A stretch of 64,000 nucleotides of DNA, taken from the IMG/VR virus record IMGVR_UViG_3300046092_000062, positions 249,866 through 313,865 of that record, one strand, 5' to 3'. The position numbers and the translations under genes were made by a program. The notes below the pieces were generated by a model. It did not search any database. It was not told the DNA's origin and saw nothing but the letters and a program-made list of their open reading frames with translations. Below, piece after piece: positions 25,537 through 64,000 of the stretch. The number at the start of each line of letters is the position of its first letter. Position 1 is the first letter of the stretch. The DNA is from a virus.

Positions 25537-25597
25537 AGCATCATCCCGCTATACAAATTCTGCTGCCTATGCTACAATTAACATAGGAGAATAAAGC

Positions 25598-26585: not shown

Positions 26586-26586
26586 T

Positions 26587-47642: not shown

Positions 47643-48459
47643 CAGGAGCAGTTAATATAAACTGTTTATCGGTTTGTGTTAACTGCCACGTTGGTAATAA
47701 ACGTTTGGCCATTCTAGCATACAACGATTGACGTGACTGTTCGTCTGCTGTGAATGTGAGTGCTGTTACTTTACCTTGGTAACGCTGCAAGAATTCGCGC
47801 ATGATATCAGTAATAGTTGACATTACTTCTGCACTGTTGCCGGTGCCAGTTAGACCAAATTTACCGTAACGGGTGCGCCCACGTTCGGCATTTTTAAATT
47901 CCACTTCCCATGTACCATTCGCCTCTGGATAAGTGTACGCATGGAATTGAAACGGGATCTCGCCAATGTGGAATACTGCTACTGCTTCTTCGCTGCCAGT
48001 AAAACTCCATTTGTAGTCTTTGCCGGGCTCAAATAATTCAGCAAGAGATTGGCCTGCTGCATCTTCGTAATAGCCTTTTTGGCCGTTTGGTAGGATGTGC
48101 TTGGACTGCTTGGATTGGTTCCAAGAACGCCACATTCTTTCGCCGGCATCAGTTTGGTCTGGATGCGGCATGACATCGTTGCCCAACATCTTAGCATACG
48201 CATACATGGTAGTAGCAACGCCTTGATCTCGGTAATTTGGATTTACCCAAGTACTTTGGCTTTTTAATGTGTCGGGATCAAAGTAAAAATTAAACAAAAT
48301 GTCGCCGATTAACTTTTTACCATCGTAGGCTTTAATTGCTAATCCAGCACCCTGGCTAGTCGCAGTATATGTATAGTCGCCGATTTGTTGTGTATGTTTA
48401 AAACGACGATGGGCGATGTCTGGGTTAATAGCTTCTGTGATAATTTCATTGATTCGCAT
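47635..48459 (-). CDS. GNAT-like acetyltransferase with capsid-targeting-like N-terminus, 274 aa
   Basis: The N-terminus MRINEIITEAINPD fits the T4 internal-protein leader (ITE before Ala). Residues about 70-95 carry WVNPNYRDQGVATTMYAYAKMLG, similar to the acetyl-CoA loop (R-x-x-G-x-A) of GNAT enzymes. The C-terminal half is a separate domain of unknown fold. It follows the glycosyltransferase-like gene directly (TGAATG). The GNAT call rests on one motif. Confidence 0.55.
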   Translation of the reverse strand: MRINEIITEAINPDIAHRRFKHTQQIGDYTYTATSQGAGLAIKAYDGKKLIGDILFNFYFDPDTLKSQSTWVNPNYRDQGVATTMYAYAKMLGNDVMPHPDQTDAGERMWRSWNQSKQSKHILPNGQKGYYEDAAGQSLAELFEPGKDYKWSFTGSEEAVAVFHIGEIPFQFHAYTYPEANGTWEVEFKNAERGRTRYGKFGLTGTGNSAEVMSTITDIMREFLQRYQGKVTALTFTADEQSRQSLYARMAKRLLPTWQLTQTDKQFILTAPAN

Positions 48460-50907
48460 TCAGTATTTAGCATCGTAGCGGGCACGTAGCCACGCCCACT
48501 CAAAGCTCAACTGTAGCTTTGCTAAATCACCCTGCACTTCTTCGTAGTATGCAACTGCATCGTTAGCACCGTCTATGCTGTAATTGCTGTAATTGCCCGA
48601 TGCAACCGTGCGCCATGTTTCAAGTCTATGCTCAGTTTCTAGTGTAGGCTGCGTATCCATAAACAATCGCAGCTTTAACACCTCTCTAAATGCTGTGCGC
48701 CATGTGGTCCAAGCGTCTTGGTTATAGTGAGCTACCCCGCTTAAAATAGGCACCGATTCGTGCGGTTGTGACAGTGTAAAGTCAATTCCAGGATCGTTAT
48801 TTGCTAAAACAAGGCTCTTATTGTAGGCAATCATTCCTTGGTGTCCGTACACTAGTCCATTGACGGGATTCTTTGCATTAAAGATGTAATGCTTGGGACC
48901 TTGCCAATAGTCTGGGCGGAACTCCCATATATCCCTGTTACCAAACACTTCTAGCTTGGCAAACACTGCTAGAAACCAATCTGTTGTGCTGGCCTGCGCT
49001 GCCGCTTGATATGCTGCTACACGCCCATTAACTCCACGGATCCATTTTACATCACGATTGCTCATGTACTCAGTATGCTCAAACCATTTCTGTTCGTCTG
49101 GTTCGCCATTGCTGATAAACACAATGTCCAAATCCTTTACTGCCTTCATATTACGCAATCGGGGATGCTCTACTAGATGCGGATAATCGTAAATTTGCGT
49201 TTTGAGATACTTCTTAATATCACGCGGAATCAAGCTGGTACTTTTGTCTGCACCAATGTCAATTGCAACGCGATCTTTTTCAGTCCACAGGCATGTGGTA
49301 TACCCGGTCATGCTAGTGAATTGTTTTTCCTTTGTAAACAAGGCATAGGGTGTAGTGAAGTTGTGATTCTTAATAGCGTTGATTAGATTGTCATGATCGT
49401 AGTGAACTGCTGGGACTGGGTAACGTGTTACTTCGTGCCCTTCTATATAGTTGATCACATTAAACCAATCCAACAACTCCAGTTCAACCATTTGCTTTTT
49501 AAATGACTCAACGTGAATGTAGAATGTGTCGCCACGCTTCTCTGGTGAGAGTGTCCATCTAGATTCATTAGAGAAGCAATGAATCATCTCACGTTGCCAC
49601 GGCTCAGGTTCCCACGTGAAGTCAAAGTCTCTGTAATCGCAAATGCTGTTGAGGATCCACACATACTCAGTGTCTGCGTTTTGCATGATACGCTTAAAGG
49701 TATCAAAATATGTGTTTACAAAACGTGTCTTAACCATGTCCGGATATGTGTTTAACATTGCCGGGTAATCGATTTCGCTTTCCGGATTGCCGTGGTCCAC
49801 AAAATACATGTCGCAGTTGGTGTCGGGCTTTACTACGCTTTGGTCAGACACAAAGTTTAAGCTAGGAAACTCTTCTATACCCTTTGCCCACTCTGTGTGT
49901 CGATTGAATTCCCACTTGTTGATTAGGAATGTGTCACTCCATTTGTTATGCTGACTTGGAAACACATGAGTCATGTACTGTTGCCATGGTTCGGCGTGCC
50001 AGTGGAAGTCAAAATTAGAATAGTCATACTCGCTGCTAACTACCCAAAACTTATTGGTCTTGCTTCGTGTAACACATCGCTTGATTGTGTCCATCATGCT
50101 GTTAGCATAACGAACCTTAGTGACATTGTGTATTTCATTAAGTCTATCATACCGCACCTGTGCTGTAGGGTTGCCTTTATCAACAAAGAAAATGTCCAGC
50201 ACTTGCATTGCAGTTAATTTGTGATAGCCAGGTGTAGGCATAGGTCCTGCAAAGCTAATGTCTGTTGCTCCGGGTACGGTATAAGTTAAGCCAATGCTTT
50301 GTTGATAGTCACTGCCAAAATGATAAACATAAAGTGGATCAAGCGGATTAGGATGCCAACTAAAGTCTACTGTAGACTCGTTAATCTCTTCAGGGATCGC
50401 CCAATGCGTTTTGTCCGCTAATGCAGTAACCGTAAACGCATTACCGAACTTGATGCCAGTTGTATGCAACATGGTGTAGTAAACACCACTGGCACTCTGA
50501 TGCTGACTAGGAAAGTGGTAAGTGTAGTTACCTTCTGTTGTATCCGGATGCCAAGTTAGATCCACCGAGGATGGGTCAATATAATCAGGTATCGTCCAGC
50601 CCGCAGGATAAGGCAATCGTTTAACTGATTGTTCAGTTCTAAAGTGATATTGTTTATGCGCATGGGTGTCTACGTGCGCAAGAAACACATCACCACATCG
50701 TTGATGCTGACTTGGCCACACATGCAAATGACTGTGTTCCCACGGCACAGGACGCCAATTAAAATCGAAGCCTGTGTAATCGTTGCCCCCATAAATATAC
50801 CAGTAGTACCCAGTTTTACACTTGGCCGCTGCTGCTTCTATGCTCGGCGCATATTGCTCAAATGCAAATAGGTTTGGCTTGCGGCCATAATAAAATACGT
50901 CAAACAT
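48460..50907 (-). CDS. Large repeat protein, glycosyltransferase-like, 815 aa
   Basis: A unit pattern F-D-F-x-W-x-P-x-PW...H-x-F-P-S-Q-H...D-x-F is visible in about five to six imperfect copies (near residues 47, 114, 180, 299, 427 and 690), each preceded by a strand-rich segment such as LDIFFVDKGNP or LDIVFISNGEP. These segments resemble the first strand and DXD-region of GT-A glycosyltransferases, so it may be a multi-domain sugar transferase or sugar-binding protein. I cannot confirm catalytic residues. Its ATG overlaps that of the divergent gene at 50906. Confidence 0.5.
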   Translation of the reverse strand: MFDVFYYGRKPNLFAFEQYAPSIEAAAAKCKTGYYWYIYGGNDYTGFDFNWRPVPWEHSHLHVWPSQHQRCGDVFLAHVDTHAHKQYHFRTEQSVKRLPYPAGWTIPDYIDPSSVDLTWHPDTTEGNYTYHFPSQHQSASGVYYTMLHTTGIKFGNAFTVTALADKTHWAIPEEINESTVDFSWHPNPLDPLYVYHFGSDYQQSIGLTYTVPGATDISFAGPMPTPGYHKLTAMQVLDIFFVDKGNPTAQVRYDRLNEIHNVTKVRYANSMMDTIKRCVTRSKTNKFWVVSSEYDYSNFDFHWHAEPWQQYMTHVFPSQHNKWSDTFLINKWEFNRHTEWAKGIEEFPSLNFVSDQSVVKPDTNCDMYFVDHGNPESEIDYPAMLNTYPDMVKTRFVNTYFDTFKRIMQNADTEYVWILNSICDYRDFDFTWEPEPWQREMIHCFSNESRWTLSPEKRGDTFYIHVESFKKQMVELELLDWFNVINYIEGHEVTRYPVPAVHYDHDNLINAIKNHNFTTPYALFTKEKQFTSMTGYTTCLWTEKDRVAIDIGADKSTSLIPRDIKKYLKTQIYDYPHLVEHPRLRNMKAVKDLDIVFISNGEPDEQKWFEHTEYMSNRDVKWIRGVNGRVAAYQAAAQASTTDWFLAVFAKLEVFGNRDIWEFRPDYWQGPKHYIFNAKNPVNGLVYGHQGMIAYNKSLVLANNDPGIDFTLSQPHESVPILSGVAHYNQDAWTTWRTAFREVLKLRLFMDTQPTLETEHRLETWRTVASGNYSNYSIDGANDAVAYYEEVQGDLAKLQLSFEWAWLRARYDAKY

Positions 50908-52024
50908 GTATAATCTTAACAGTCATTACGAAAACATCTATCACTTCTTGTCTACTATTGTAGCACAACCAAGGGTATTATATCTACACCCATTTGGATC
51001 GAGTCAACCGGAAAACATCGAAGTGCTAGCAAAAGACATGAGTCATTTGCCCAATAACGGCGACCCATTGTTTATCTTCTACGATCAAGAACCCATTTAC
51101 GGTGCGTACAATTTTAGGTTATTTGATTACATCAGAGATAACATGAGTGGCCCATTTGTTCTAGTCACTACGGAAAAGGAAAGTAGTGCCGTTGAAGATA
51201 TTCGTACTCGTTACGGATGGGAGGTTGTGTATTACTTTCATCATGTGTTTGCTGCACACGATTGGTTTCGCGGATACAGTTACGATAGCAGATTAACGCT
51301 ACCAGTAGATAGAACAATAAAAAAGAAGTATGTAACATTTAATAGACTCACTAGTAATTCGAGGGTGTATAGAAGTTTGTTGATTAGTGAACTAATCGAA
51401 CGCAATATCCTGAGCAAAGGGCATGTTAGTTATAATGACACCTGCCCAGATGGCGGATCATACGCGGACAACTTATCGTCTGCTGCGTCCAATTGGTTAA
51501 TCTCATGGGATGTAGCGAACAAAGCCATTGCAAATATTTCAACAGCACCATTGCCATTGCGTGTTGACTACAAAGACCGTGATTCAATTCCTAATCATAG
51601 CTTTGTATTAAGTGCAGTACCAGAGACACAGGAGAGTTTTGTGTATGTAGTCACTGAGACTTGCTTCTGGGATCGCAAACATCACCTAACTGAAAAGATA
51701 TTCAAACCTATTGTAAGTCAAATGCCCTTCTTACTTGTCGGGCCTGCTCACAACTTAAAGTATTTACGCGAATACGGATTTGAAACATTTGGCCAATGGT
51801 GGGATGAAAGTTACGACGATATCGAAGACCCTGTGCTGCGACTAAAAGCTGTTGCGGATGTATTAGAAACTATTTGCAAAAAGACAGACAAACAACTAGA
51901 GCGTATGCTTAAAGAAATGCAGGATGTGCTTTCATACAACTATAATCGATTCTACAGCCAAGACTTCCTGGATGCAGCATGGTGCGAACTAACCGATAAT
52001 CTACGATTCGCTATTCCTCTTTAA
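50906..52024 (+). CDS. Glycosyltransferase-like protein, 372 aa
   Basis: The only rightward gene in this region. The end carries a pattern I know from phage exostosin or fucosyltransferase-like proteins: VVTETCFWDRKHHLTEKIFKPI, PFLLVGPAHNLKYLREYGFETFGQWWDESYDD. The family moves sugars. ATG 50906 lies in ACATGT, shared with the start of the leftward gene at 50907. The stop overlaps the stop of the leftward kinase gene. Confidence 0.7.
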   Translation: MYNLNSHYENIYHFLSTIVAQPRVLYLHPFGSSQPENIEVLAKDMSHLPNNGDPLFIFYDQEPIYGAYNFRLFDYIRDNMSGPFVLVTTEKESSAVEDIRTRYGWEVVYYFHHVFAAHDWFRGYSYDSRLTLPVDRTIKKKYVTFNRLTSNSRVYRSLLISELIERNILSKGHVSYNDTCPDGGSYADNLSSAASNWLISWDVANKAIANISTAPLPLRVDYKDRDSIPNHSFVLSAVPETQESFVYVVTETCFWDRKHHLTEKIFKPIVSQMPFLLVGPAHNLKYLREYGFETFGQWWDESYDDIEDPVLRLKAVADVLETICKKTDKQLERMLKEMQDVLSYNYNRFYSQDFLDAAWCELTDNLRFAIPL

Positions 52025-52443
52025 TGCTTCATGTACTTTGCAACTACTTCTGCTAGTTGCTTATGTGTATCATCAAACCAAGTGCTAACATGGTAATCGC
52101 AGTTGATGGGTTTTTCAAACAGTTTATTAGTGTCTTCAAATCTACCTTCATTGATAGTGTCCATCCACACTGTGAACTCAGCATCAAATTCTGCTCTTGC
52201 TGCTTCTGTGGGGCATACAAAATCTGCTACTGCAATCTTACCAGCTTTAACTACACCGTCGGCTAGATACTTCATACGCATTGCCTGCCTCATACGACCT
52301 TCTGGTGTAAAGTCCCAGTCATTGTATTCCTTGCGTACTGCATCTGCGTTAAGCCATACTCCGCCGATTAGATCTGCAAATGGTTTAGCCAATGTGCTCT
52401 TGCCACTTCCCGGCAATCCAAATATCAGTATCTTCTTAGTCAT
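52021..52443 (-). CDS. P-loop kinase (adenylylsulfate-kinase-like), 140 aa
   Basis: Walker A GLPGSGKST at the N-terminus, then a short ADAVRKEYNDWDF segment and VADFVCP, in the order seen in APS kinases and other small nucleotide kinases. Substrate could be APS (linking to the sulfotransferases) or another small molecule. The stop overlaps the + strand gene's stop. ATGA-coupled to the nucleotidyltransferase. Confidence 0.65.
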   Translation of the reverse strand: MTKKILIFGLPGSGKSTLAKPFADLIGGVWLNADAVRKEYNDWDFTPEGRMRQAMRMKYLADGVVKAGKIAVADFVCPTEAARAEFDAEFTVWMDTINEGRFEDTNKLFEKPINCDYHVSTWFDDTHKQLAEVVAKYMKH

Positions 52444-52799
52444 TTTAGACCCATTTCTAATCTAATTTTTGTAGCACTTATGTTATGAATTTGTTCATCA
52501 AAAGTTTCTTTCTCTATTGAGTACCCAACCTCTCGTCCGTATGTGATATTTGTTATATTCGGAACTACTAAGATTTCATATTGACCTGCATACATTGGAT
52601 CTAAGTCTTTCTGTATATTAGCAATCACTTCGTTGAGTGTAAATGGATTGGACTCATTCCATCCCTGACAGTCCCTAATCATAATACACACCTGTCCAGT
52701 TTTAGCAATAGCACGTTCGAACAATGCACGGTGGCCGGCATGCCAGGGCTGCCATCTTCCTAGCATTTGTACCGTCGGTTTCTTCCAATCAAATTTCAT
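52440..52799 (-). CDS. Cytidylyltransferase-like nucleotidyltransferase, 119 aa
   Basis: GRWQPWHAGHRALFERA is the HxGH nucleotide site, and ISATKIRLEM the second site (ISxTxxR). The family joins a nucleotide to a phosphate-bearing group (as in CTP:glycerol-3-phosphate or PPAT-type enzymes). ATG at 52799 is used; a TTG four codons upstream is less likely. ATGA-coupled on both sides. Confidence 0.75.
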   Translation of the reverse strand: MKFDWKKPTVQMLGRWQPWHAGHRALFERAIAKTGQVCIMIRDCQGWNESNPFTLNEVIANIQKDLDPMYAGQYEILVVPNITNITYGREVGYSIEKETFDEQIHNISATKIRLEMGLK

Positions 52800-52999
52800 T
52801 CTCTTCCCCAAATAATTTTGTTCCAGACACGTTCGTGTATAAAATATAACACGGTGTTAATTACTAATTGTGTTGATGCTATTGCTCCGGCTATTTGAAG
52901 GTTGCCGAGTACCAAATACGATATCAATAAAGTTGATGCCGTACCGGTTACTCTCCAACTAATAGTCTTAGCAATGCTTCTACCAGTCGCTTCAGTCAT
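52796..52999 (-). CDS. DUF2061 membrane protein, 67 aa
   Basis: Two hydrophobic helices and YFIHERVWNKIIWG at the end, matching the paralogue at 27634. ATGA-coupled to the carbamoyltransferase and nucleotidyltransferase. Function unknown. Confidence 0.65.
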   Translation of the reverse strand: MTEATGRSIAKTISWRVTGTASTLLISYLVLGNLQIAGAIASTQLVINTVLYFIHERVWNKIIWGRE

Positions 53000-54483
53000 G
53001 AACAGACCTTTACGCCATACAACTGTTCGAATCTATCTGCATCTGCACGATCGTTTACCATTGGTTCCCCACGTATGTTAAGACTTGTGTTTAACAACAT
53101 AGGGCACCCTGTCATCACGTACCATTTTTCGAGCAGCTCTCTAATGCCGCTTCCATCTTTTGGCACTGTCTGTACACGACTAGTTCCGTCAGCGTGAACG
53201 ATAGCAGGAAATAGGTCAGGAACCCTACACCTAGCGACTGACTGCATATACCTACTATGCTCGAACCCACGAGGCATATCAAAGTAAGTATCAGCCAGTT
53301 CTTCCAAAATAACTGGCGCAAAGGGTCTGAATTGTTGTCTACGTTTGATGTCATTTACTTTCTCCTTAATCTCGCTGCCTCTAGGATCTGCAAGCAGGCT
53401 TCTGTTTCCAAGTGCTCTTGGACCGAACTCGGCTCTCCCGGAAGCCACTCCCACAATTTGCCGAGTAAGTAACTCGTCCAGAACGTCGTTAACAGGGTAA
53501 GGGCCAGGAATATTATGCCCGAGATAAGCGTCATGCCAGTTAAGGGCACCCCCATAAGCCAGAGCGGCAGCACCAAGGCTACTGCCAGCATCCCCAGGGT
53601 TAGGCATAATCCATATATTCTCAAAGTAGTTTCCTATACGTGCATTTGCTGCACAGTTTAAAGCGCATCCGCCCATGTATACAAGGTTGTCACTCCACTT
53701 AAATTGCTTTGCGCGAAGCATGACGTTGAGAATCAAATCCTCAGCCAGGTCCTGTGCTGCGGCCGCAATATCCATGTCACTAAAGTTAGACAGGTACTTT
53801 GTACTCATGCCCATGTGCAAGTTTTCTTTAAACTTGATTTCCCATTCGTCGGATACCAAGTCTAGCTTCATTATGTCTTTAGCATATCCGCCACCATAAG
53901 CAGCCATGCCCATTAGAATGTATTCTTCGTCTAGTGGGCGTAGGCCAACGAGCTTAGTAGCTCCAGTATAAAAGAGTCCGATTGAATGTGGGTAATTCTG
54001 TTGCCAAAGTCGCTTATAAGTTGCTTTACCGTTGCTATCATATTCTGCTCCCCAAATTGAGATAGTTTCAAATTCACCAATGGCGTCAATAACAACTACT
54101 GTGGCCTTGTTGAAACTGCTGGTCTGAAATCCCGCTGCTGCATGGCTCAGATGATGATTGTAGTTCTTATAGTACTTTAGATCCCACCACTTGGCATGCC
54201 CAATCTGCTTATGCACAAGTTTCTTAACGCTGAGCTTATCCCACTCGAATCCTTGTCCTGCATAAGCCTGACGCAACTGCTTATATAGAGGACGTTCGTA
54301 ATAAGCCACGGTCTGGATGGGATTGTATTCCTCGAGCTTACGAATAAGTGGACTACAGAAATTAGCATCTGACTTTGACTTACTATATCTTTCGGAATGA
54401 CTGGCGAAAAGGATGTTCCCATCTTCGTCTAATACTGTTGCGGCTGCGTCATGATAACCAGCCGAGATGCCTAATATGTTCAT
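52996..54483 (-). CDS. Carbamoyltransferase (TobZ/NodU family), 495 aa
   Basis: ISAGYHDAAA at the N-terminus, HHLSHAAAGF, GGCALNCAAN, NPGDAGSSLGAA, GRAEFGPRALGNRS and the C-terminal LNTSLNIRGEPMV are all present, so the protein is complete. The family uses carbamoyl phosphate and ATP to carbamoylate sugar or antibiotic hydroxyls; phage members have been proposed to act in DNA hypermodification. The sugar-modifying neighbours fit either role. ATGA overlap with the DUF2061 gene. Confidence 0.9.
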   Translation of the reverse strand: MNILGISAGYHDAAATVLDEDGNILFASHSERYSKSKSDANFCSPLIRKLEEYNPIQTVAYYERPLYKQLRQAYAGQGFEWDKLSVKKLVHKQIGHAKWWDLKYYKNYNHHLSHAAAGFQTSSFNKATVVVIDAIGEFETISIWGAEYDSNGKATYKRLWQQNYPHSIGLFYTGATKLVGLRPLDEEYILMGMAAYGGGYAKDIMKLDLVSDEWEIKFKENLHMGMSTKYLSNFSDMDIAAAAQDLAEDLILNVMLRAKQFKWSDNLVYMGGCALNCAANARIGNYFENIWIMPNPGDAGSSLGAAALAYGGALNWHDAYLGHNIPGPYPVNDVLDELLTRQIVGVASGRAEFGPRALGNRSLLADPRGSEIKEKVNDIKRRQQFRPFAPVILEELADTYFDMPRGFEHSRYMQSVARCRVPDLFPAIVHADGTSRVQTVPKDGSGIRELLEKWYVMTGCPMLLNTSLNIRGEPMVNDRADADRFEQLYGVKVCS

Positions 54484-54994
54484 TTATTTTATCTGCTATT
54501 CTTTGATGACCTAGCTCCAGCGGATGCCCGCCAGGTCCTTTAGGGCAATCGCCCATCCACTCTACCATACTGCCCGGTATCCAATTGCCTACATTGCAAT
54601 TAGGAACATCAAACGTTCTTACGAATACATAAGGTATATTGCGATCACGCAAGTACGCATCTAACATTAACACTTGCGTAAAAAACTTTGTCTTGGCCCA
54701 TTCTTCGTCCCAATCTAAAAATACATGATCGCAAATTGATCCATACTTTCTATGACTACTTGGAGTAAGGTGTTGTCCGTTTACTTCTATCCTATTAGGA
54801 GTAGTCCATGCAATAATTGCATAGGTTGGGTAATGATTCTCCACTGCGACTACAGTAGACTTAATGATTGCATCATTACTGTAGCCTGGCTGAGCTCTAT
54901 TCATAACAGGGCAGTCTAATAACTCTGGCCACGGTTTTTGGCCGTTTGTTAGTTCTTCCCCGTATGTAAAGCTGTCGCCGTTAACAAACATCAT
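54449..54994 (-). CDS. SGNH-hydrolase-like protein, 181 aa
   Basis: GDSFTYGEEL has the candidate nucleophile serine; PGYSND the Gly/Asn block, and GGHPLELGHQRIAD the His block. Likely an esterase or acyltransferase. Overlaps the carbamoyltransferase by 35 bases. Confidence 0.65.
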   Translation of the reverse strand: MMFVNGDSFTYGEELTNGQKPWPELLDCPVMNRAQPGYSNDAIIKSTVVAVENHYPTYAIIAWTTPNRIEVNGQHLTPSSHRKYGSICDHVFLDWDEEWAKTKFFTQVLMLDAYLRDRNIPYVFVRTFDVPNCNVGNWIPGSMVEWMGDCPKGPGGHPLELGHQRIADKINEHIRHLGWLS

Positions 54995-55015: not shown

Positions 55016-55840
55016 TTACGCAATTCCTTGAGTTTCTTGCGGTAACGAATTTCCAGACGGATTCTGTTGTACAGACTTTTTAACCAGTTCATTGAATTGT
55101 TCTTTCATTAATAGGGCTGCGTCACTGTGCGCTTGCTCTAGCGGATGTGTGGTACCTATAGGGTATTTATTTTCCTTTGCCCACTGATAGAAACCTCTTG
55201 GGTTGCATGTTTCATTGAACTTAGTTCCTGCAGGAAACCAATACCATTTCAACAAATCAATTTGGTTTACAAGACTCATAATAGTAGGATCGTTTTGGCT
55301 AACGGTGTAGTTATAGATCAAGCTATTGTCTGCACAAGTAAACATGTAGGGAATGCCTTTTACTTGAAGGTAATTTTGAAGGTACACAATTTCTTTAAGA
55401 CTTGAATACACTTCCCAATATTCCGTAGAACCCACGTGTGCGTAGAACGTTCTTGCAAAATCTGCAACACCAGTCGTCTGCGCTCTGCCGATGGTCTCCA
55501 GCTGGGCATCCAGAATAGCCTTATCCTTAGTAACGAATTCTTTTTCAATTTCTCTTGCATCTTGTTTTATCGTCCACGAGTTAATGCTGTACCATGGACT
55601 TTTGCGCTGCTTTGTATCGTATGCAAATCTAAACTCGTAACGACCGGAAAATGTCCAGCTAACGATTACACCAGTTACCCCGCCTTGCTCGCAACGTTCA
55701 ATGGTGGTGCGGGCAATAGCATCGTTGCTATATCCCGGCCATGCAACGCACTCGTCTGCGCCTAACAATGCTGTAAAGGTATTGGCTGGGCTTGCTAGCT
55801 CACTGCCATAAACAAAACTATCGCCTGCTGCTATAATCAT
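55016..55840 (-). CDS. SGNH-hydrolase-like protein, 274 aa
   Basis: GDSFVYGSEL (nucleophile), PGYSNDAIA (Gly/Asn block) and TTHPLEQAH (His block) match the neighbouring SGNH gene, so the two are related (274 versus 181 aa). Each family member acts on ester bonds; the pair may remove or add acyl groups on a surface sugar. The start overlaps the end of the next gene by 23 bases. Confidence 0.65.
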   Translation of the reverse strand: MIIAAGDSFVYGSELASPANTFTALLGADECVAWPGYSNDAIARTTIERCEQGGVTGVIVSWTFSGRYEFRFAYDTKQRKSPWYSINSWTIKQDAREIEKEFVTKDKAILDAQLETIGRAQTTGVADFARTFYAHVGSTEYWEVYSSLKEIVYLQNYLQVKGIPYMFTCADNSLIYNYTVSQNDPTIMSLVNQIDLLKWYWFPAGTKFNETCNPRGFYQWAKENKYPIGTTHPLEQAHSDAALLMKEQFNELVKKSVQQNPSGNSLPQETQGIA

Positions 55841-56921
55841 ATCCAGGCTTTAAACGGTCGATTTGTTGTTGGTAGTAGTCCGGGTCTGTCCAAGTGTAGG
55901 GATATAGGGAGCGTAGTACATTCCCTTGCCCGTCATCTGTAGTGATCCCCTGTATGTCAAGGTATTTAGAGAGGATGGGCCATATGCTGGCGTAATCAGT
56001 TGTGCCAAAACTTTCTTGCAACGAAACTTGGCCCACTGGGTGGTATCCATAGTTATATTGCGTGTCATGTAAGTCGAATCCGTTGCGGACAAGCCAATCC
56101 CTAAATCCTGTAAGCTCTCGGGTGTGCCAAGGATGCGGACCATTAAAGCATACATCTTGTGCCCATTCGATGTCAAACTCCCCGCTATAGTAACGTAGGT
56201 GAGTAATAGCATCACAAGTGGCCTGGTCAATATCGACTCCCGCCTCATCTCTATAGACTTCAAACAGTGTTTTGCCAATTTGTGTCCAATGTAGGTATAC
56301 TTCCCCGAAGCGTCTGTCATATCGAGATTCGTCAAATGTAGTTCTATGTACTGATGGGAATTCATGGCGTGGGCAATTTAAGAATGTTGTAATTTGACTA
56401 GGACGAATCCACTCAGGCTGTGTTGCTTTCTTGCGCTGACTTAACATTAAACTTTCTGCTTCGTGGCACAGCAAGTTTAGTTGACGGATAGCAAACTTTG
56501 TGGTGTAGTCTGCCCGCTTGTAATATTCACTAAGTCCGTTAACAGTGCCTTGCAGTATCTCAAAATGATTGTGCAACTTGTTCATCAAGTCTTGGTTGGG
56601 ATCGAGTGTAATTGGATCACGTAATGTGGTATGAGTATACAGTTCTTCGATATGATAGTCGTCAAAGAAACTGTTAATCTCATTTACTGCCCAAAACAGT
56701 TCTTGGCAAATAAAACGCAAGTCACGTTGGCTATCCGGAAATCCCAAAAAGCAAAAGTTCTTTTCAAGATAGAGATTACGCTGCACTACATCCTGCAATG
56801 CTTCGAACCACAGTTTACCCATTGACGTATCATTCACGTTAATGTAGTAATCTAACGTGTCACTTTTGTCTAACGGGTTTTGTAGTGTTACTGTTACTTT
56901 GTTCAAATTGAATCCCACCAT
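55818..56921 (-). CDS. Hypothetical protein, 367 aa
   Basis: Aromatic- and Asp/Asn-rich, no signal or membrane segment. Residues 1-140 look helical with a short beta start (NKVTVTLQNPLDKSDTLDYYIN); the rest has YHPVGQVSLQESFG and a Tyr-rich C-terminus. It overlaps both neighbours and so belongs to the radical SAM operon. No family recognised. Confidence 0.5.
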   Translation of the reverse strand: MVGFNLNKVTVTLQNPLDKSDTLDYYINVNDTSMGKLWFEALQDVVQRNLYLEKNFCFLGFPDSQRDLRFICQELFWAVNEINSFFDDYHIEELYTHTTLRDPITLDPNQDLMNKLHNHFEILQGTVNGLSEYYKRADYTTKFAIRQLNLLCHEAESLMLSQRKKATQPEWIRPSQITTFLNCPRHEFPSVHRTTFDESRYDRRFGEVYLHWTQIGKTLFEVYRDEAGVDIDQATCDAITHLRYYSGEFDIEWAQDVCFNGPHPWHTRELTGFRDWLVRNGFDLHDTQYNYGYHPVGQVSLQESFGTTDYASIWPILSKYLDIQGITTDDGQGNVLRSLYPYTWTDPDYYQQQIDRLKPGYDYSSRR

Positions 56922-58198
56922 TCTAACACCGCAGGTCTGCCTGCAAGTATATCTCTCATAGTATACTGGTCATTGCGAATTTGTTCAAGTTTTTCGATAC
57001 GAGCTTTGCCACGCTTTAGTCCATCTTGATATTCGTTGGGCCATTGTTCAGCAAATGTGGGTCTAGTTTTCAGCTGGACTAAGATATCCTTTAACGGATC
57101 GTTACTGATTAAGTTAAGTTGTTCGTCTATCCATTCATCAAGCAGATGTCTAGGTAGGGCTAAAGGTGACATAACTATGTCCGGACTGAAACTAAAAATT
57201 ACTTTGGCAAGGATGTCGACGTTGAGTTCTTGGGACAGTCGTTGCATGGATTCGAGCTCGAACATACCTGGCAAAGTGAGTGTAAAGTCGATTCGCATTT
57301 GGCGACGGTGACGTTGGATCGCAATTCCTGCACGGAAGTTTTCAAGCCATCTAGTGTAATCAAGGCCTGTTCTAATGTATTCGCCAATTTTTCCCGTGCC
57401 GTCAAGACTTGCACATATTTGCCAATCCCGTATATTAGCAAGGATATCAGTATAGAGGTTAACACCCCGATAAGTAGTTCGAGAAAGATTTGTATTATAT
57501 CGTGCATAGACATTTTGGCCATCTCCTAGTTCTATGATGCGTTGCATATAGCGCCAGTGTTGTTCATACATGAGTGGTTCTCCGCCAACCCAGTACACTT
57601 CTTCAACACGGTGTTCTTCGACGGCTTGACTAAACTCTGCCTCAATTTCTCTATCTTGAAATTGCTCAATTTGTTTTTTGACTTCAGGTTGCATCCAAGT
57701 ATTCTTTGGATTGGACCAATCTATCATGTTATGCTGTCTTTGCTCTGTCTCCCAACTACTACTTAACATGTCACCACACATACGGCACTTGAAATTACAT
57801 AGATTGGTAAATCTGTAATCCCAACTAACAGGTTTCATTGTAGTGTAGCCTGTTTCGTCCGTTGCATTTATTACAACATTGTAATCGTACTTATGTCCAA
57901 ACATGTGATCAAAATAGCTGCGGTAAACGGAGGTATTCAACAGTTTATCATTACATACTTCACACTCTGGTAGGGTTTCCCCAGCAATCATGCGACGACG
58001 GACCGACCGCATGTGCTCGCTATTCCAGTGTTCTTCCAGAGTTATCGGTATATAACGTCCTGTACCCGCCGAAACGTCGATATACTGTTGAAAATTTTGT
58101 GCAGGTTCGCGACTAGCGCAACACATTCTGCGTTCTGTTTGTGGGCTTAGATACGTATGCACCCAAGGTGCAAGGCACATAGTAGCAGGTTTATTCAT
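56903..58198 (-). CDS. Radical SAM protein with N-terminal twitch domain 1, 431 aa
   Basis: The radical SAM motif is C134-x3-C138-x2-C141 (LCNFKCRMCG), followed by a GGEPL segment (WVGGEPLMYE). Upstream cysteines C8, C26, C27, C79 and C82 are placed as in N-terminal twitch (SPASM-like) domains that hold an extra iron-sulfur cluster. Such enzymes modify peptides, sugars or other small molecules. The start overlaps the next gene by 8 bases. Confidence 0.85.
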   Translation of the reverse strand: MNKPATMCLAPWVHTYLSPQTERRMCCASREPAQNFQQYIDVSAGTGRYIPITLEEHWNSEHMRSVRRRMIAGETLPECEVCNDKLLNTSVYRSYFDHMFGHKYDYNVVINATDETGYTTMKPVSWDYRFTNLCNFKCRMCGDMLSSSWETEQRQHNMIDWSNPKNTWMQPEVKKQIEQFQDREIEAEFSQAVEEHRVEEVYWVGGEPLMYEQHWRYMQRIIELGDGQNVYARYNTNLSRTTYRGVNLYTDILANIRDWQICASLDGTGKIGEYIRTGLDYTRWLENFRAGIAIQRHRRQMRIDFTLTLPGMFELESMQRLSQELNVDILAKVIFSFSPDIVMSPLALPRHLLDEWIDEQLNLISNDPLKDILVQLKTRPTFAEQWPNEYQDGLKRGKARIEKLEQIRNDQYTMRDILAGRPAVLEWWDSI

Positions 58199-59399
58199 AC
58201 CCCATTGCCTTTGCGATTTCTAAGTGAGTTGTTCTAAAGTCTTGCTTGCGGTAGTCATCTGTGCGCTGCATTTGACGCAGGAATTCTGCACCATCGCTAC
58301 CTTGTCCGTTTTGTATAAACTTAACTACGTTGTCGACTTCTTGCTGATAACGACCCGGCCATGCAGTTGATTGCAGTTTAGCAATAACCAGCTCTTGTGC
58401 TGCGGGCGTCATGTATTGTACGCTCATCTGGTTAGGGCTATGTAGCATGTTGAAGTGGATGCTGTTAAACATCTTAGGTGCTGCCCAAGCTAGCAATTCA
58501 TCAATGTAATAAACGTTTTGAATGTTGATTGTAAAGCATAGCTGAGTTGTAATATTCTTCTGCACTCGACGCAATTGATGTGCTGCATCAACTACTTCAT
58601 TTGCTCTATCCCACTTAGCACCGTAGCGCTCATACTCAAAACGATCGCCTACGTTATCGACGCTAAATGCAATATCTACACGACCAAACTCTTTCCAAAG
58701 ATCCACTGCATCCTCAGGCCATTGGGTAGCATTTGTATTGTAGTGAATATCGATACCTTTTGCAAAACCGTTGTCTGCTGCATAACGCAATAGATCAAAG
58801 TGCTCTTGAATTAACCACGGCTCCCCACCAGTAAACTCAAAGTATTTGATATTGGGTAGCATCTCTCTGAGGTTGTCCCAGAACGTTGTGGTCTTACGTG
58901 GCCATGCGCCCTTCTTTAACCACTGGTATGCAATGTGTTGTTTCTTATCTGCACCTGCAGGCATGTAGTTCATTTCTTCTTCTGCCCACTTGCTGCTACT
59001 CCAGCTTCCGCAAATGCGACATTTTAAGTTACAAATGTTGCCTAGCTTTAAGTCAATGAACCACAGCTGATCCGGAGTATCATTGGCCCAGTCTACAAGC
59101 GGGTACAATTCCTTTAGTCGAATCTGGCTGTTGATACGCTTGCTGTTGCGACCAATTTCTTCTTCTTTCCAACAGTCACTACATGTCGCAGGCTTTTCAC
59201 CTGCACGGAATTGTCTACGCAGGTTCTGCATGTATTCGCTCTTGTACACTGTTGCCAAGTCGGTTTCGTTAAGATCGTACTTGACACCGTTTTCGTCTGT
59301 GATTTGCTCTTGTGCAAGACAACATGGGCGTGTGGTTCCCATTGGGCTAGTTTCAATACTAACCCACGGTAGCATACAAATAGTCTTAGGTAGGTGCAT
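58191..59399 (-). CDS. Radical SAM protein with N-terminal twitch domain 2, 402 aa
   Basis: C123-x3-C127-x2-C130 (ICNLKCRICG), then TGGEPWLIQE. The N-terminus has C8, C26-C27 and C73-x2-C76 (CSDCW), in the same order as copy 1. The start overlaps copy 3 by 14 bases. Confidence 0.85.
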   Translation of the reverse strand: MHLPKTICMLPWVSIETSPMGTTRPCCLAQEQITDENGVKYDLNETDLATVYKSEYMQNLRRQFRAGEKPATCSDCWKEEEIGRNSKRINSQIRLKELYPLVDWANDTPDQLWFIDLKLGNICNLKCRICGSWSSSKWAEEEMNYMPAGADKKQHIAYQWLKKGAWPRKTTTFWDNLREMLPNIKYFEFTGGEPWLIQEHFDLLRYAADNGFAKGIDIHYNTNATQWPEDAVDLWKEFGRVDIAFSVDNVGDRFEYERYGAKWDRANEVVDAAHQLRRVQKNITTQLCFTINIQNVYYIDELLAWAAPKMFNSIHFNMLHSPNQMSVQYMTPAAQELVIAKLQSTAWPGRYQQEVDNVVKFIQNGQGSDGAEFLRQMQRTDDYRKQDFRTTHLEIAKAMGYE

Positions 59400-60702
59400 A
59401 TTGTTTCAGCTCGTGTAATTCAGGAAACACATCAAAGAAGTTTTCTTTGCGTACATTGTCAATTAAATCATTGTTCTTAAAGAACTCTGGTAACTGGTCA
59501 GTGCTGTCATTTGCCATCATGAAGTTGATAATGCCTTCGTAACCGCTAGTGGCTCTACTTAGTTTGTCTTGTGGGCGTAGCCAATCTAAATGGCGCTCAA
59601 TTTTTGCTTTAGCCCTATCTTTAAGCACCTGCGGTAACACGTCAACACGATACCGGTGCGGATGCTGTAGGATGTTAATGTTCCAATCCATTGGGCGCAC
59701 TAAACCTAGCTCGCTCCAGTCACGGTGAAAGTCTGCGATATGCAAAACGTTCATCATGCTTACTGTGCTGCTAACATAGAAGTCTACGTTAGGACATACC
59801 TCAATCATACGCTTACGGTTGTCAACTGTTTGTTGCCAATCTTGTCCCTTACGTATGTACTCGCCACGTTCAAAGCTGCCATCTAAACTAGCGCCAACGC
59901 TCACACAGTCAAACAGTTTCCACATTTCAAATACGTCACGACCTTTAAACTTCATTTCGCTAAAGTTAGTGTTATAGATCAGTCGTACATGGAACATCTT
60001 GCGCTTAACCAGTTCGTCAAGCACCTTCCAATGTTCTTCCATAATAAGTGGTTCACCGCCTGCCCAGTAGATTTGTTCAAGGTGCGGAATATGCTCTTGC
60101 ATCTGCTCCCACATATCGCCTTTGTCTTTACCAGCATACATCACTTGTGGGTGTTTTGGATCCCATCCAGCTGCTTTTTCATCTCTATACCAACTACTTG
60201 AAAAGATGCTACCGCAGGTACGGCAGCTAAAGTTGCAAAGGTTGCTAAAGCGAATATCGTAGTAGCGCAATTTAAAGTCATCATATTGTCCATCCTCTTT
60301 TGTATCATCAACTAATCCAATGTGGTGCCCAAAGTTCTTGTTAGCACTTTCACGCATACTAAACAGTTTACTATCTTCTTGCTCATAGCACTTGGTGCAT
60401 TCCTTGCAAGGTTGATTTAGTAACATACGTTTACGCATGTCCTTCATCGGAGCATCGTTCCAAATCTCACGCATGGTTTGCGTTTTAAGATTACCAATTG
60501 GGTGCTCTGGCTCGCTTAGGCAGCAAGGATATGCACGACCATCGGGGAAGGCGTGCATGTGAATCCAAGGAATCATACAGAACTGATCGCTCTTGATTAG
60601 TCGATCAAGTTGATCTGTTCGTAGGTCTTCTTCTTTGATATAAACTGGCTTACGGGCGCCGTAGTTGTAATCTTTATAGTAGTCGTTTAGGTTATCTGCC
60701 AT
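59386..60702 (-). CDS. Radical SAM protein with N-terminal twitch domain 3, 438 aa
   Basis: C156-x3-C160-x2-C163 (LCNFSCRTCG) and AGGEPLIMEE. A 40-residue N-terminal extension precedes C42, C60-C61, and C99, C102, C105. It has the most twitch-like cysteines of the five. A tandem 10-base repeat lies directly in front of its ATG. Confidence 0.85.
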   Translation of the reverse strand: MADNLNDYYKDYNYGARKPVYIKEEDLRTDQLDRLIKSDQFCMIPWIHMHAFPDGRAYPCCLSEPEHPIGNLKTQTMREIWNDAPMKDMRKRMLLNQPCKECTKCYEQEDSKLFSMRESANKNFGHHIGLVDDTKEDGQYDDFKLRYYDIRFSNLCNFSCRTCGSIFSSSWYRDEKAAGWDPKHPQVMYAGKDKGDMWEQMQEHIPHLEQIYWAGGEPLIMEEHWKVLDELVKRKMFHVRLIYNTNFSEMKFKGRDVFEMWKLFDCVSVGASLDGSFERGEYIRKGQDWQQTVDNRKRMIEVCPNVDFYVSSTVSMMNVLHIADFHRDWSELGLVRPMDWNINILQHPHRYRVDVLPQVLKDRAKAKIERHLDWLRPQDKLSRATSGYEGIINFMMANDSTDQLPEFFKNNDLIDNVRKENFFDVFPELHELKQYAPT

Positions 60703-60730
60703 TATAGTGAATTATAGTGAATTATAGTTG
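60701..60730. repeat. Tandem decamer repeat, three copies
   Basis: ATTATAGTGA occurs twice and then ATTATAGTTG once, in the gap between radical SAM copies 3 and 4. On the minus strand each unit contains TATAAT, so the array could act as repeated -10 elements, or simply reflect slippage. Confidence 0.7.
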
Positions 60731-62071
60731 ATTATACCAAGCTGCTAGCTCTGGGAATGTGTTGCAGAAGTCTTTGCCCCTGCGTTGATCGTACTGTGCA
60801 AAGAAGTTTTTAAAGTCCTGTTGTAACACTGATTGCTCTGCTGCGCCTGCATGTGGAGTTATCATCACATCAAGGTAATCAATTAGTCGTTTCAATTGAT
60901 CAATTTCAAATCCATGGCACACGTTGCTATCTTTGTGTGCTTGATAGAAGTTGCTGAGATTTGTTCTGTATTGGGTGCGTAGTTCGTCGGGTAATACCAA
61001 CGGGCTTTGAAAACTTGGGAATCGTAAAATATTTAGCGAAAAGTTAATCGAGTCTTTACCATACTTACGCTTCCATGCCACTACCATCTCAAGGAAGCGG
61101 TCTAAGCTGCTAAGACATAGTGCGTTGACAGTACACATCACATGCAAACCACGGAACTTGCCGCTATCTAACAAACGCTCTACGTTGTTAGTCCAGTCCT
61201 CAAAGTTAATACCATCACGGATGTACTCAGACTGCAAGCCAATGGATTCGTTGCTGGTATACAAGTCAACTTCAACGCCATCAATGGCGCCAAGCAAGCG
61301 ATCGATATCTACTTCCGTGCCTAAGTTACTGTTAATAGCAAGGCGTGTCTTGCTCTTGCCTTTGTTGGTCTTAAACCATTCAATCAGCTTCCACGTTTCG
61401 CCCGACATCAATGGCTCTCCGCCGGTGATGCGTAGTTCCTTTAGTGTTCTGTGGAGATCGCTTTCCCACCACTTGTGAAAGGCGTCCACATAAGGATTAG
61501 CTTGACCGAAGCGATACAGTTGAGAGCTATCATGAGCATGAGTAAAGTGATTTCGTCCGTCACTAACCAATCCGTTATAGGCCCCGTTATTCCTAATGTC
61601 TTTAACCCAAGTGCTGCTAAAAGCAGGATTGCAGTAACTACATGCAAACTGACAAGTGCGGTCGAAAGCAATTTCCAAAGTTTGCAAATCCACATCGGTG
61701 CTGGCTGGGGTACTAAAAGCATAATTTAAATCCTTATCGTCATATATAACTGTTTTGTAAACACGGTCAGACACAGAGTCTTTACCCATGTCTTCAATCT
61801 TCCAGCAGTATTCACAACCTGCAGGACGTTCTCCCTTTTGCATCTGCTCACGTTCCATTTTCTTTTTAGAAGTGTTGTGCAGTGCTTTGGGGTTTGATGA
61901 TAGCTCACTCACATCAATTGCATGTGGCAACGGATGATGGCAGCTAGTGGTTTGACCACTACCTAACCAGATAGTGGCGTTGTACCATTTTGCTCCGCAG
62001 AAGCTTTCGCTCTTAATGTCAATCACTCTGCGTTTGTATTCTAGGTCTGTTTCGTTATTGATTCTGGGCAT
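60722..62071 (-). CDS. Radical SAM protein with N-terminal twitch domain 4, 449 aa
   Basis: C140-x3-C144-x2-C147 (TCQFACSYCNPAFSS) and TGGEPLMSGE. N-terminal C25, C44, C86 and C89 (CEYCWKIED). Copies 4 and 5 share a second sub-pattern (C-x-HHPLPH or C-x-HPPLHK, then PKALHN or PSALHN), so they form a subgroup distinct from copies 1-3. Confidence 0.85.
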   Translation of the reverse strand: MPRINNETDLEYKRRVIDIKSESFCGAKWYNATIWLGSGQTTSCHHPLPHAIDVSELSSNPKALHNTSKKKMEREQMQKGERPAGCEYCWKIEDMGKDSVSDRVYKTVIYDDKDLNYAFSTPASTDVDLQTLEIAFDRTCQFACSYCNPAFSSTWVKDIRNNGAYNGLVSDGRNHFTHAHDSSQLYRFGQANPYVDAFHKWWESDLHRTLKELRITGGEPLMSGETWKLIEWFKTNKGKSKTRLAINSNLGTEVDIDRLLGAIDGVEVDLYTSNESIGLQSEYIRDGINFEDWTNNVERLLDSGKFRGLHVMCTVNALCLSSLDRFLEMVVAWKRKYGKDSINFSLNILRFPSFQSPLVLPDELRTQYRTNLSNFYQAHKDSNVCHGFEIDQLKRLIDYLDVMITPHAGAAEQSVLQQDFKNFFAQYDQRRGKDFCNTFPELAAWYNQL

Positions 62072-63446
62072 GGTACCTACATTCGTCCCAGAACTCTTTC
62101 ATCTCTGGGAATGTTGTTTTAAAGTCTGTTCCGCGTCTTGCATCGTGATGATTAAAGAAGCGATAAAAGTCAGCACGTTGCAGTGTAACATATTCAGGAT
62201 CAAGAGTGCTACCTTCTTTCATCCATTCTATGTCACGAGCCATACGTTGAATCTCGTAATCCTTAAAACCTTGAAATGGTTTGTCTGCTGTTTCTTTGTT
62301 AGCTTCCATCCATTTTAGAATGTCTTCCATACGCTTAACATAGACCCAAGGCATGATCTGAATACTTTGCCAGCTAGGGGTGCGTAGCAAGGGAGTGTCA
62401 AACCAAACACGTTGATAAGTTGTGCTGTGCTGTTTTCGTAAATCCAGAATCCAATCTAGCTGCGCCTGTAAACCAACAATGCTTAAATTATTCATTGTGA
62501 TAATGAATGTGAGACTGTTGCGGTGAGGAATATCAGTTAGGTAACGCTGCACGTTGTTATGAACACGAGATGCTATCATGCCATGTCGAATGTACTCAGC
62601 CTGTTCCATATTGCCTGAGTCCAAACTAACATACTGCATAAAATGCTCAATTTGAGTATTGCACAAACGTTTTACATAATCAAGATACTGATCCATTAAC
62701 TTAGGATCTACGCTGAAGTTACTGGTCACATTCAAATGTAGGTCTGGCTTGGGCATAGCCAGCACATAGTCAAACACCTTGTAAGTGTTCTTGTCCATCA
62801 GCGGCTCGCCACCTGTCATGCGGAAATGTTTAAGTTTAGAGTACAGTTCAGGCCACCACTCCCAAAACGCATCAACGTAGGGATTAGACTCTCTGGCAGG
62901 TATTGGTCGTCTAGCATTAGTGAAGTGAGCCGGATCATTGTGAGGAACAGAGGTAGGAAAAGCACCGTGTCGTTGTACTTCATCAGCCCAACTGCTAGAA
63001 AACTGAGGGGAACAATAACTACACTTAAGGTTACAAGCGTGGTTAAAATTAACTTCAACATAACTTGGAATTGTATCTTCTTGTCCTGTAGAATTTTTGA
63101 TCTCGTCATAGTGTTCTGCTGCCCAAGGCTCTCCGCTTCTGTAATGTCTGTCACTTAGTTGATCATGTGCTTCAATGTTCCAGCAATAGCTACACTCACT
63201 GGGCTTTTCATCCTTTAGCATAATCACACGCTGTTGCTTTTTATGCTCGGTGTTATGTAATGCGCTGGGATTGAGTTTGATTGCTTCTGGATCAATCTTG
63301 TGCAATGGCGGATGGTAGCAACTGTTGTTCAATCCAGTTGGTAAGTGCAGGCTTACTTGTTTCCATTTAGCCAGACAGAGTGCAGGACCTAACTTGGCCT
63401 TCATCTCATCTGCTGCACTCATAAAGTCGCTCTTACCTGTTGTCAT
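62055..63446 (-). CDS. Radical SAM protein with N-terminal twitch domain 5, 463 aa
   Basis: C138-x3-C142-x2-C145 (ACNLKCSYCSPQFSS) and TGGEPLMDKN; N-terminal C24, C43, C85 and C88. Close to copy 4 in layout. It overlaps both neighbours. First radical SAM gene of the operon after the sulfotransferase-like gene. Confidence 0.85.
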   Translation of the reverse strand: MTTGKSDFMSAADEMKAKLGPALCLAKWKQVSLHLPTGLNNSCYHPPLHKIDPEAIKLNPSALHNTEHKKQQRVIMLKDEKPSECSYCWNIEAHDQLSDRHYRSGEPWAAEHYDEIKNSTGQEDTIPSYVEVNFNHACNLKCSYCSPQFSSSWADEVQRHGAFPTSVPHNDPAHFTNARRPIPARESNPYVDAFWEWWPELYSKLKHFRMTGGEPLMDKNTYKVFDYVLAMPKPDLHLNVTSNFSVDPKLMDQYLDYVKRLCNTQIEHFMQYVSLDSGNMEQAEYIRHGMIASRVHNNVQRYLTDIPHRNSLTFIITMNNLSIVGLQAQLDWILDLRKQHSTTYQRVWFDTPLLRTPSWQSIQIMPWVYVKRMEDILKWMEANKETADKPFQGFKDYEIQRMARDIEWMKEGSTLDPEYVTLQRADFYRFFNHHDARRGTDFKTTFPEMKEFWDECRYHAQNQ

Positions 63447-63981
63447 ATGAAAATTTCTCTAACATGTTTTTAACTAATGTGTAATTGGTTACTATCTCTT
63501 GGGGAGGAATTGGGTATTGGTTCTGCTTAAACTTAGTTGTCTTGCGGGACTTGACCATATCTTCGTAATAGACAATTTCATTTGGCGTGATTGCAAAGTC
63601 TAAATATTGTTCCATTAGAAATTGCTCTATGTCGTCTTTAGTTGACTCCCACGGTAACAAGTCTTTGTAGTCATTCCAGTCCGGCGAATGTTTGCTTATG
63701 CTAGCCTGCGTCTGTGCTCTAAATACGCACCAACTTAGATACTGTGCTACTTTGTCTCTGCGGCGTAAATTAACCACATAGTAATCACTTGTCCAACTAA
63801 GGTCTACTGCTAGCGCAATCTTTGCCCAGTTTTGCACAATGCTGCAATACACAAACTTGTCGGCTATATCAGGCAGTTCAGTAACTTCACCTAGTATAAC
63901 TTTTTCAGGCAACTGCGACTCGTTATAAAGCATGTCGCAGGTCATGTGACTGCCACTACGAGCAGTGCCAATGACTATCAT
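63433..63981 (-). CDS. Sulfotransferase-like protein (Stf0-like), 182 aa, possibly extending past the window
   Basis: VIGTARSGSHMTCDML is a P-loop-type 5'-phosphosulfate site, and YVVNLRRRDKVAQYLSW the matching 3'-phosphate site, as in Stf0-type sulfotransferases. ATG at 63981 is chosen; the frame continues to the window edge, so the true start could be upstream. It likely uses PAPS. Confidence 0.65.
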   Translation of the reverse strand: MIVIGTARSGSHMTCDMLYNESQLPEKVILGEVTELPDIADKFVYCSIVQNWAKIALAVDLSWTSDYYVVNLRRRDKVAQYLSWCVFRAQTQASISKHSPDWNDYKDLLPWESTKDDIEQFLMEQYLDFAITPNEIVYYEDMVKSRKTTKFKQNQYPIPPQEIVTNYTLVKNMLEKFSYDNR

Positions 63982-64000
63982 GCCTTTTATTCTCTGCACA

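Follow-up and report, generated by a model that had tools for sequence, protein, structure and literature searches.

Five N-terminal-twitch radical SAM genes kept in fixed order in giant T4-like phages: a possible radical-chemistry section of a glycan-building module

The DNA analyzed here (the window) is a stretch of 64,000 nucleotides corresponding to bases 249866–313865 of the virus record IMGVR_UViG_3300046092_000062, which is 320,767 bases long. It contains an array of five contiguous minus-strand open reading frames, R1 to R5 (56903–63446), which overlap their neighbours or lie 19 bp apart and which are transcribed in the order R5-R4-R3-R2-R1. The record encodes a gp23-type major capsid protein (PF07068, 1.8e-98, record 2757–3704) and thereby belongs to the T4-like group; the host of the array is a giant (jumbo) T4-like phage of bacteria. 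The T4 gp23 family was matched at that place and also by two short pieces at record 209020–209205 and 210593–210673. A model of the T4 portal protein gave no match in the record, but the control for this model gave none either. The five genes, which encode radical S-adenosylmethionine (SAM) proteins, are as follows.

R5, 62055–63446, minus strand: N-terminal-twitch radical SAM protein of 463 amino acids, first gene of the array; NF033640 300.7 bits, 1.7e-89.
R4, 60722–62071, minus strand: N-terminal-twitch radical SAM protein of 449 amino acids; NF033640 295.7 bits, 5.7e-88.
R3, 59386–60702, minus strand: N-terminal-twitch radical SAM protein of 438 amino acids; NF033640 412.4 bits, 2e-123.
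R2, 58191–59399, minus strand: N-terminal-twitch radical SAM protein of 402 amino acids; NF033640 335.6 bits, 4.4e-100.
R1, 56903–58198, minus strand: N-terminal-twitch radical SAM protein of 431 amino acids, last gene of the array; NF033640 285.8 bits, 5.7e-85.

All five proteins matched NF033640 (N_Twi_rSAM, twitch domain-containing radical SAM protein) over nearly their full lengths and well over the curated cut-off of 170 bits, with scores of 285.8–412.4 bits. A preliminary description, made from the sequence alone, had recognized five successive radical SAM proteins with N-terminal twitch domains, intact CxxxCxxC sites and a second set of N-terminal cysteines, and each of these points was borne out. 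The CxxxCxxC (CX3CX2C) motif is intact in R1–R5, and the few invariant columns in a diverse alignment of 38 members included its cysteines together with exactly four N-terminal cysteines (C42, C61, C102 and C105 in R3 numbering). All seven cluster cysteines (three radical and four N-terminal) were conserved at 0.99–1.00 among 138–150 orthologues per gene (R5, n = 149; R4, 0.99–1.00, n = 141; R3, 1.00, n = 150). R3 matched the family consensus best among the five, and its NH2-terminus matched SPASM (PF13186) at 2.5e-13, whereas R1 was the most conserved copy, with 66–76% identity in a diverse set of relatives. Decay of the array was rejected as an explanation, given that there were no stop codons, that all cysteines were kept and that the rough ratio of nonsynonymous to synonymous substitution rates (dN/dS) was 0.025–0.127, with dS being mostly saturated and R2 yielding no value. 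Given the conserved cysteines and these low rough ratios, all five genes appear to be constrained, and we have very little doubt that R1–R5 are functional radical enzymes. Three more N_Twi genes above the cut-off were found beyond the array, at record 64889–66172, 110993–112021 and 181266–182234, and other radical SAM genes of the record lie at 49207 and 72098.

The copies proved to be of different origins. In a tree of 121 phage and bacterial N_Twi proteins, R1 formed a single clade (support 100), and R4 and R5 were sister groups inside a clade (support 100) that also holds bacterial members. R2 and R3 sit in other parts of the family tree, and R1 grouped with R4/R5, not with R2/R3, at weak support (89). 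The preliminary description had divided the proteins into two subgroups, copies 1–3 and copies 4–5, and had proposed a phylogeny as a check; the second subgroup was confirmed as sister clades, the first was not a single clade, and the tree resolved five old and separate lineages. Orthologues of all five are present in marine phage contigs. Recent tandem duplication was rejected because the copies are old lineages held in common with marine phages; the array was put together long ago from different lineages.

Three neighbouring genes served to delimit the module or were scored when it was retested.

GT299, 63987–64886, minus strand (63987–64000, its 3′ end, lies in the window): GT-A-like candidate glycosyltransferase; predicted local distance difference test (pLDDT) value of the AlphaFold model, 85.7.
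U367, 55818–56921, minus strand: companion of R1, 367 amino acids; conserved family, always directly after R1.
CT, 52996–54483, minus strand: NodU/TobZ/NovN-type O-carbamoyltransferase; PF16861 4.8e-47, PF02543 5.2e-34.

Scans of IMG/VR yielded 355 relatives with R5 as query and 220 with R1, of which 80 each were kept; after removal of duplicates, 84 distinct environmental phage loci spanning GT299 to U367 remained. In this search for the array in other phages, as the preliminary description had proposed, the order R5-R4-R3-(R2)-R1 was kept in 84/84 loci, and all five orthologues were present in 78, with R2 being the missing copy elsewhere. R2 was sometimes absent and sometimes doubled in relatives, and 30 of the 84 loci carried more than five radical copies. 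The recurrence of order and content in 84 distinct loci indicates that the array is not a product of chance. Given that these loci had been picked through R1 or R5, we repeated the analysis with loci anchored on neighbouring genes. Of at least 596 loci found through GT299, the nearest 80 were kept, so that their counts describe the near group: at least one N_Twi gene was found downstream in all 65 loci with more than 4 kb of downstream sequence (three or more in 56), and fibre-type genes were found upstream in 74/74 loci with more than 5 kb of upstream sequence. R1 was directly upstream of U367 in each of 34 U367-anchored loci, and CT was downstream of U367 in all 32 such loci with enough sequence. 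More distant marine contigs were also found, some with one to a few N_Twi genes. Eight contigs filed as bacterial metagenome-assembled genomes (Pelagibacter, Verrucomicrobia, Rickettsiales and others) carry the array block and resemble phage DNA.

The operon starts with the fibre-type genes g360, f512 and e331, just beyond the window edge upstream of R5, followed by d109, c281, b291, a116 and GT299, all of which lie outside the window except for the 3′ end of GT299. Relatives of f512 (eight to nine) matched virion structural and tail-fibre families. The products of c281 and b291 are homologous to each other, and that of c281 has a DxD-like motif; the assignment of both to GT8 was not supported, in that they did not align with the GT8 proteins of Vibrio phage K566 in a profile comparison. 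The small proteins d109 and a116 are conserved, but their conserved residues are scattered and include no cysteine, a pattern that appears unlike that of core peptides. For the GT299 model, almost every one of the best PDB folds was that of a GT-A glycosyltransferase or a sugar nucleotidyltransferase, with E no better than 2.8e-3; PF00535 weakly touches the protein (0.0096), and a DGDN motif of the DxD type is present in nearly all members. Models of GT8 (PF01501) and GT10 (PF00852) gave no match in the virus record, though the GT10 control gave none either.

CT holds both carbamoyltransferase domains, and its PDB matches included NovN (2.5e-51), TobZ (about 1e-30) and GdmN, which confirms the carbamoyl transfer gene of the preliminary description. 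Carbamoyltransferases of the NovN/TobZ type act on antibiotic sugars. The remaining genes around the array are listed below.

P-loop-like “sulfotransferase” candidate, 63433–63999, minus strand: accessory; GTARSGSH P-loop-like start, 6 relatives.
SG274, 55016–55840, minus strand: SGNH/DUF6071-like hydrolase or acyl transferase; GDS start and HPLEEAH end in a 19-member alignment, weak DUF6071 match.
SG181, 54449–54994, minus strand: second SGNH/DUF6071-like protein; DUF6071 7e-5, below cut-off.
DUF2061 small membrane protein, 52796–52999, minus strand: accessory; PF09834 7.7e-22.
Cytidylyltransferase-like nucleotidyltransferase, 52440–52811, minus strand: accessory; PF01467 3.1e-4, 17 loci.
APS (adenosine 5′-phosphosulfate)-kinase-like P-loop kinase, 52021–52443, minus strand: accessory; PF01583 5.9e-8, 29 loci.
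GT372, 50906–52024, plus strand: candidate glycosyltransferase; VTETC..EKIFKPI motif in a 20-member alignment.
H815, 48460–50907, minus strand: long protein whose COOH-terminus is a degenerate copy of GT299 (hhalign probability 99.9).
GNAT acetyltransferase-like protein, 47635–48459, minus strand: accessory; PF00583 1.2e-4.
DegT/StrS-type sugar aminotransferase, 46533–47642, plus strand: convergent; PF01041 4.5e-76.
NAD (nicotinamide adenine dinucleotide)-dependent nucleotide-sugar epimerase/dehydratase, 45583–46551, plus strand: convergent; PF01370 1.6e-42, PHROG nucleotide-sugar epimerase 3.7e-50.

Among the other transfer genes that had been proposed, the nucleotidyl transfer gene was supported by the PF01467 match together with the APS-kinase-like P-loop protein, and the acyl transfer gene to the extent of SGNH/DUF6071-type and GNAT proteins. 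The sulfo transfer gene is no more than a candidate, in that the product of 63433–63999 matched no Pfam sulfotransferase family and no PDB entry and offered just its P-loop-like start. For U367, nothing related came up in Pfam, NCBIfam, PHROGs or PDB or among cultured phages, GT372 had no family or PDB match, and PDB profile searches with U367, GT299, SG274 and GT372 gave no meaningful match. In other phages, relatives of GT372 stand between core genes of the array, and further inserts at such positions include epimerases, a uridine diphosphate (UDP)-sugar dehydrogenase, DegT, an FkbM methyltransferase, a hexapeptide transferase and SGNH proteins as well as 11 further clusters with radical SAM domains. 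The core gene products have no membrane segments.

The GT299 domain copy at the COOH-terminus of H815 has AVFAKLEV in place of the DGDN motif, and H815 may therefore be a non-catalytic paralogue of GT299. Further genes for DUF2061-like small membrane proteins are present at record 70630–71145 and 277442–277702, one of them apparently a tandem double. Elsewhere in the window, 22138–27459 encodes a Rieske-type protein, three successive paralogues of about 285 amino acids with an SGG(C/L)DSE PP-loop-like motif, a QueD-like protein and a QueE-type radical SAM protein (PDB 6nhl, 3.8e-11) about 30 kb from the array, a content that suggests a pathway to 7-deazaguanine in which the PP-loop set is, unusually, threefold.

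Among 50,697 phage records, relatives of the tested radical proteins were found only in Vibrio phages of the KVP40 kind, at 22–25% identity, and GT299, GT372 and U367 had no relatives there. Vibrio phages K566, KVP40 and nt-1 are cultured T4-like phages with N_Twi genes, but they differ from the present phage in this low identity (about 22–25%) and in having no relative of GT299 or U367. K566 has two N_Twi genes above the cut-off and three below it, and KVP40 has three, all below. The gene order in K566 is N_Twi, GT8, N_Twi, N_Twi and GT4-like, followed by convergent N_Twi and GT8 genes, with the glycosyltransferases being recognized by Pfam. Bacterial genomes were scanned successfully with an alignment of R1–R3 as query; an alignment of all five proteins was too diverse for this use, and R3 alone gave no match. 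Bacterial chromosomes, many of Bdellovibrionota, also carry N_Twi genes, sometimes as arrays. Five bacterial contigs, mostly of Bdellovibrionota, hold multi-copy N_Twi arrays whose proteins are 34–50% identical to R1, R4 or R5. Bacterial operon context was rejected as proof of a glycan function because its signal was only modestly above a control of distant genes.

We know of no function for the NF033640 subfamily, and the model itself comes without the context described here of five separate lineages, a fixed operon and glycan-type genes. The surroundings of the array point to sugars as the most likely substrates, given that CT, the aminotransferase, the SGNH proteins and the GT-A-like gene surround it, and to a virion glycan as the most likely product, given that the array shares its run of genes with fibre-type genes. 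The preliminary description had suggested that successive radical reactions act on a nucleotide sugar or a modified base; the nucleotide sugar was the better supported by the GT-A-like gene, the sugar-nucleotide inserts and the GT8 and GT4 genes of K566, and the modified base found no support at the locus. That the module is a glycan pathway appears probable. We put at even chances the more specific reading that R1–R5 form the radical-chemistry section of a phage glycan-building module with the fibre as the most likely acceptor, and the identification of the co-encoded virion fibre as acceptor is, taken by itself, slightly more doubtful than that.

In such a pathway, each enzyme would reduce SAM at its CxxxCxxC cluster to generate a 5′-deoxyadenosyl radical, which would abstract hydrogen from a sugar C–H. 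The leftover electron would pass to an auxiliary four-cysteine cluster in the N-terminal twitch domain, and the outcome would be a two-electron oxidation of alcohol to ketone or, if hydrogen is returned, epimerization. Because the N-terminal cysteines that are invariant in N_Twi proteins number exactly four, the auxiliary iron-sulfur cluster is predicted to be fully ligated and redox active, and we infer oxidation-type chemistry. A precedent is the twitch enzyme BtrN (butirosin 2-deoxy-scyllo-inosamine dehydrogenase), which catalyzes two-electron oxidation of an aminocyclitol alcohol and whose auxiliary cluster has four cysteine ligands and is presumed to accept the electron (PMC6231123, PMC9012708). 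The four invariant N-terminal cysteines of R1–R5 would fit a BtrN-like twitch cluster, and BtrN acts on a sugar-like alcohol, but its twitch domain is C-terminal, whereas the cysteines and the SPASM match place that of R1–R5 at the NH2-terminus, and no close sequence relation between them is apparent. The resulting keto-sugars could then be aminated by the DegT protein and the glycan carbamoylated by CT and acylated by the SGNH and GNAT proteins, with the chain being begun or extended by GT299 and possibly by the products of the upstream genes b291 and c281. The most likely acceptor would be the fibre-type virion protein whose gene opens the operon, and the phage particle would then bear radical-made sugars.

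Several observations weigh against this pathway. No enzyme of the module has a known substrate, and none of GT372, U367, b291 and c281 falls into a family with a known function. The fold matches of GT299 are weak (E of 2.8e-3 or higher, template modelling score of about 0.35 or less). Adjacency to fibre genes does not alone make the fibre the acceptor, and the N_Twi genes of K566 and KVP40 do not adjoin annotated fibre genes. Glycosyltransferase family 2 was found in 8 of 100 operon neighbours of bacterial N_Twi genes versus 2 of 100 distant genes, a modest difference. R1 has its closest fold neighbours among peptide maturases.

The main rival is that the module remodels a surface glycan of the host (O-antigen or capsule) during infection, for example against other phages, by the same sugar chemistry. 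The sugar-nucleotide gene content also fits this possibility, and the authors of a pelagimyophage survey read the glycosyltransferases of an equivalent host-recognition cluster in this way (PMC7029224). The flippase and polytopic membrane transferase of gtrABC-like O-antigen conversion were, however, not found in the core of the module, where no polytopic or flippase-type membrane protein was detected and the accessory DUF2061 protein alone is hydrophobic, although cytosolic glycosyltransferases could use host flippases. Together with the presence of fibre-type genes upstream in every GT299-anchored locus with enough sequence, this leaves host-surface remodelling unlikely, at perhaps one chance in a few.

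Less probable still is direct modification of protein in the manner of maturases of ribosomally synthesized and post-translationally modified peptides, which would epimerize or cross-link residues in the fibre or in a small co-encoded protein. The nearest PDB folds of the R1 AlphaFold model, whose N-terminal part is of low confidence, were indeed those of the twitch/SPASM maturases CteB, SkfB and SuiB, along with viperin and MoaA; a SPASM-like domain is present; and d109 and a116 are conserved small proteins upstream. The R1 matches are weak (E > 0.004), however, and as judged from the model they appear to mirror the generic radical SAM barrel. The known maturases act on a precursor peptide, whereas no precursor gene was found beside R1–R5: gaps in the array are too small for one, and in about 100 relatives the median distance between core genes was −4 to −23 bp, in keeping with the earlier statement that no precursor peptide is recognizable. 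With d109 and a116 being unlike core peptides, partner enzymes of the sugar type, no precursor-sized gap and weak fold matches, such a role seems improbable.

Production of a diffusible small molecule or cofactor that would serve the infected host, as a form of auxiliary metabolism, is very unlikely. Such a guess has been published for radical SAM modules of Campylobacter phages (PMC2853527). The combination of dehydrogenase, aminotransferase and carbamoyl transfer follows a butirosin-like logic, but the core showed no exporter or resistance gene and is strictly linked to fibre-type genes. That the array supplies phage DNA with a modified nucleotide or base is the least probable of these alternatives, given that the QueE-type radical SAM, QueD-like and thymidylate synthase genes of the window that might favour it lie outside the module on the opposite strand and at least 11 kb away, and that among the fibre, sugar, carbamoyl and acyl genes of the module no nucleotide- or DNA-modifying gene was found.

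T4-like phages rich in radical SAM genes have been in print since 2010, in the available text without a function (PMC2853527, PMC5332604, PMC7029224), and the array itself is therefore a variant of a known and unexplained phenomenon. Campylobacter phages CP220 and CPt10 are T4-related and carry a cluster of five radical SAM genes next to which an amidinotransferase and two proteins annotated as nucleotide-diphospho-sugar transferases are encoded; their radical SAM proteins are not N_Twi members (core-only matches, E of 1e-9 to 1e-4), and their module was described as interchangeable and probably non-essential (PMC2853527), whereas the order and content of the R1–R5 module are fixed. A marine T4-like (TARA) phage with 12 radical SAM genes (PMC5332604) and the host-recognition clusters of pelagimyophages with radical SAM cassettes (PMC7029224) likewise have radical SAM and glycosyltransferase genes near tail fibres, but the available portions of both reports give the radical SAM genes no function, family or fixed order. 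Radical SAM goes unmentioned in a survey covering 224 jumbo phages (PMC7824862). A search of the available literature for radical SAM enzymes that act on sugars gave nothing, and no account was found of a cultured virus that builds unusual fibre sugars by means of radical enzymes. As far as the literature examined shows, the novelty lies in the fixed order and in the strict association of the array with fibre-type genes, GT299, U367 and CT, and further in the tree of the copies and in a cultured system that allows the idea of a role in sugar chemistry to be put to the test.

The fixed order, these linkages and the interleaving of N_Twi and glycosyltransferase genes in K566 narrow the puzzle of phage radical SAM genes to the question of whether phages carry radical-made glycans. 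We tentatively suggest, with somewhat less confidence than for the fibre as acceptor, that widespread uncultured T4-like giant phages glycosylate their own fibres with a glycan, later carbamoylated, whose sugars come from a fixed series of successive N_Twi enzymes, between one and seven in number (here five). If so, N_Twi_rSAM would be a class of sugar-modifying enzymes, which would be the first function for the family, U367 would be a new protein family in a glycan pathway, and virion glycans would probably bear on how abundant environmental phages recognize their hosts.

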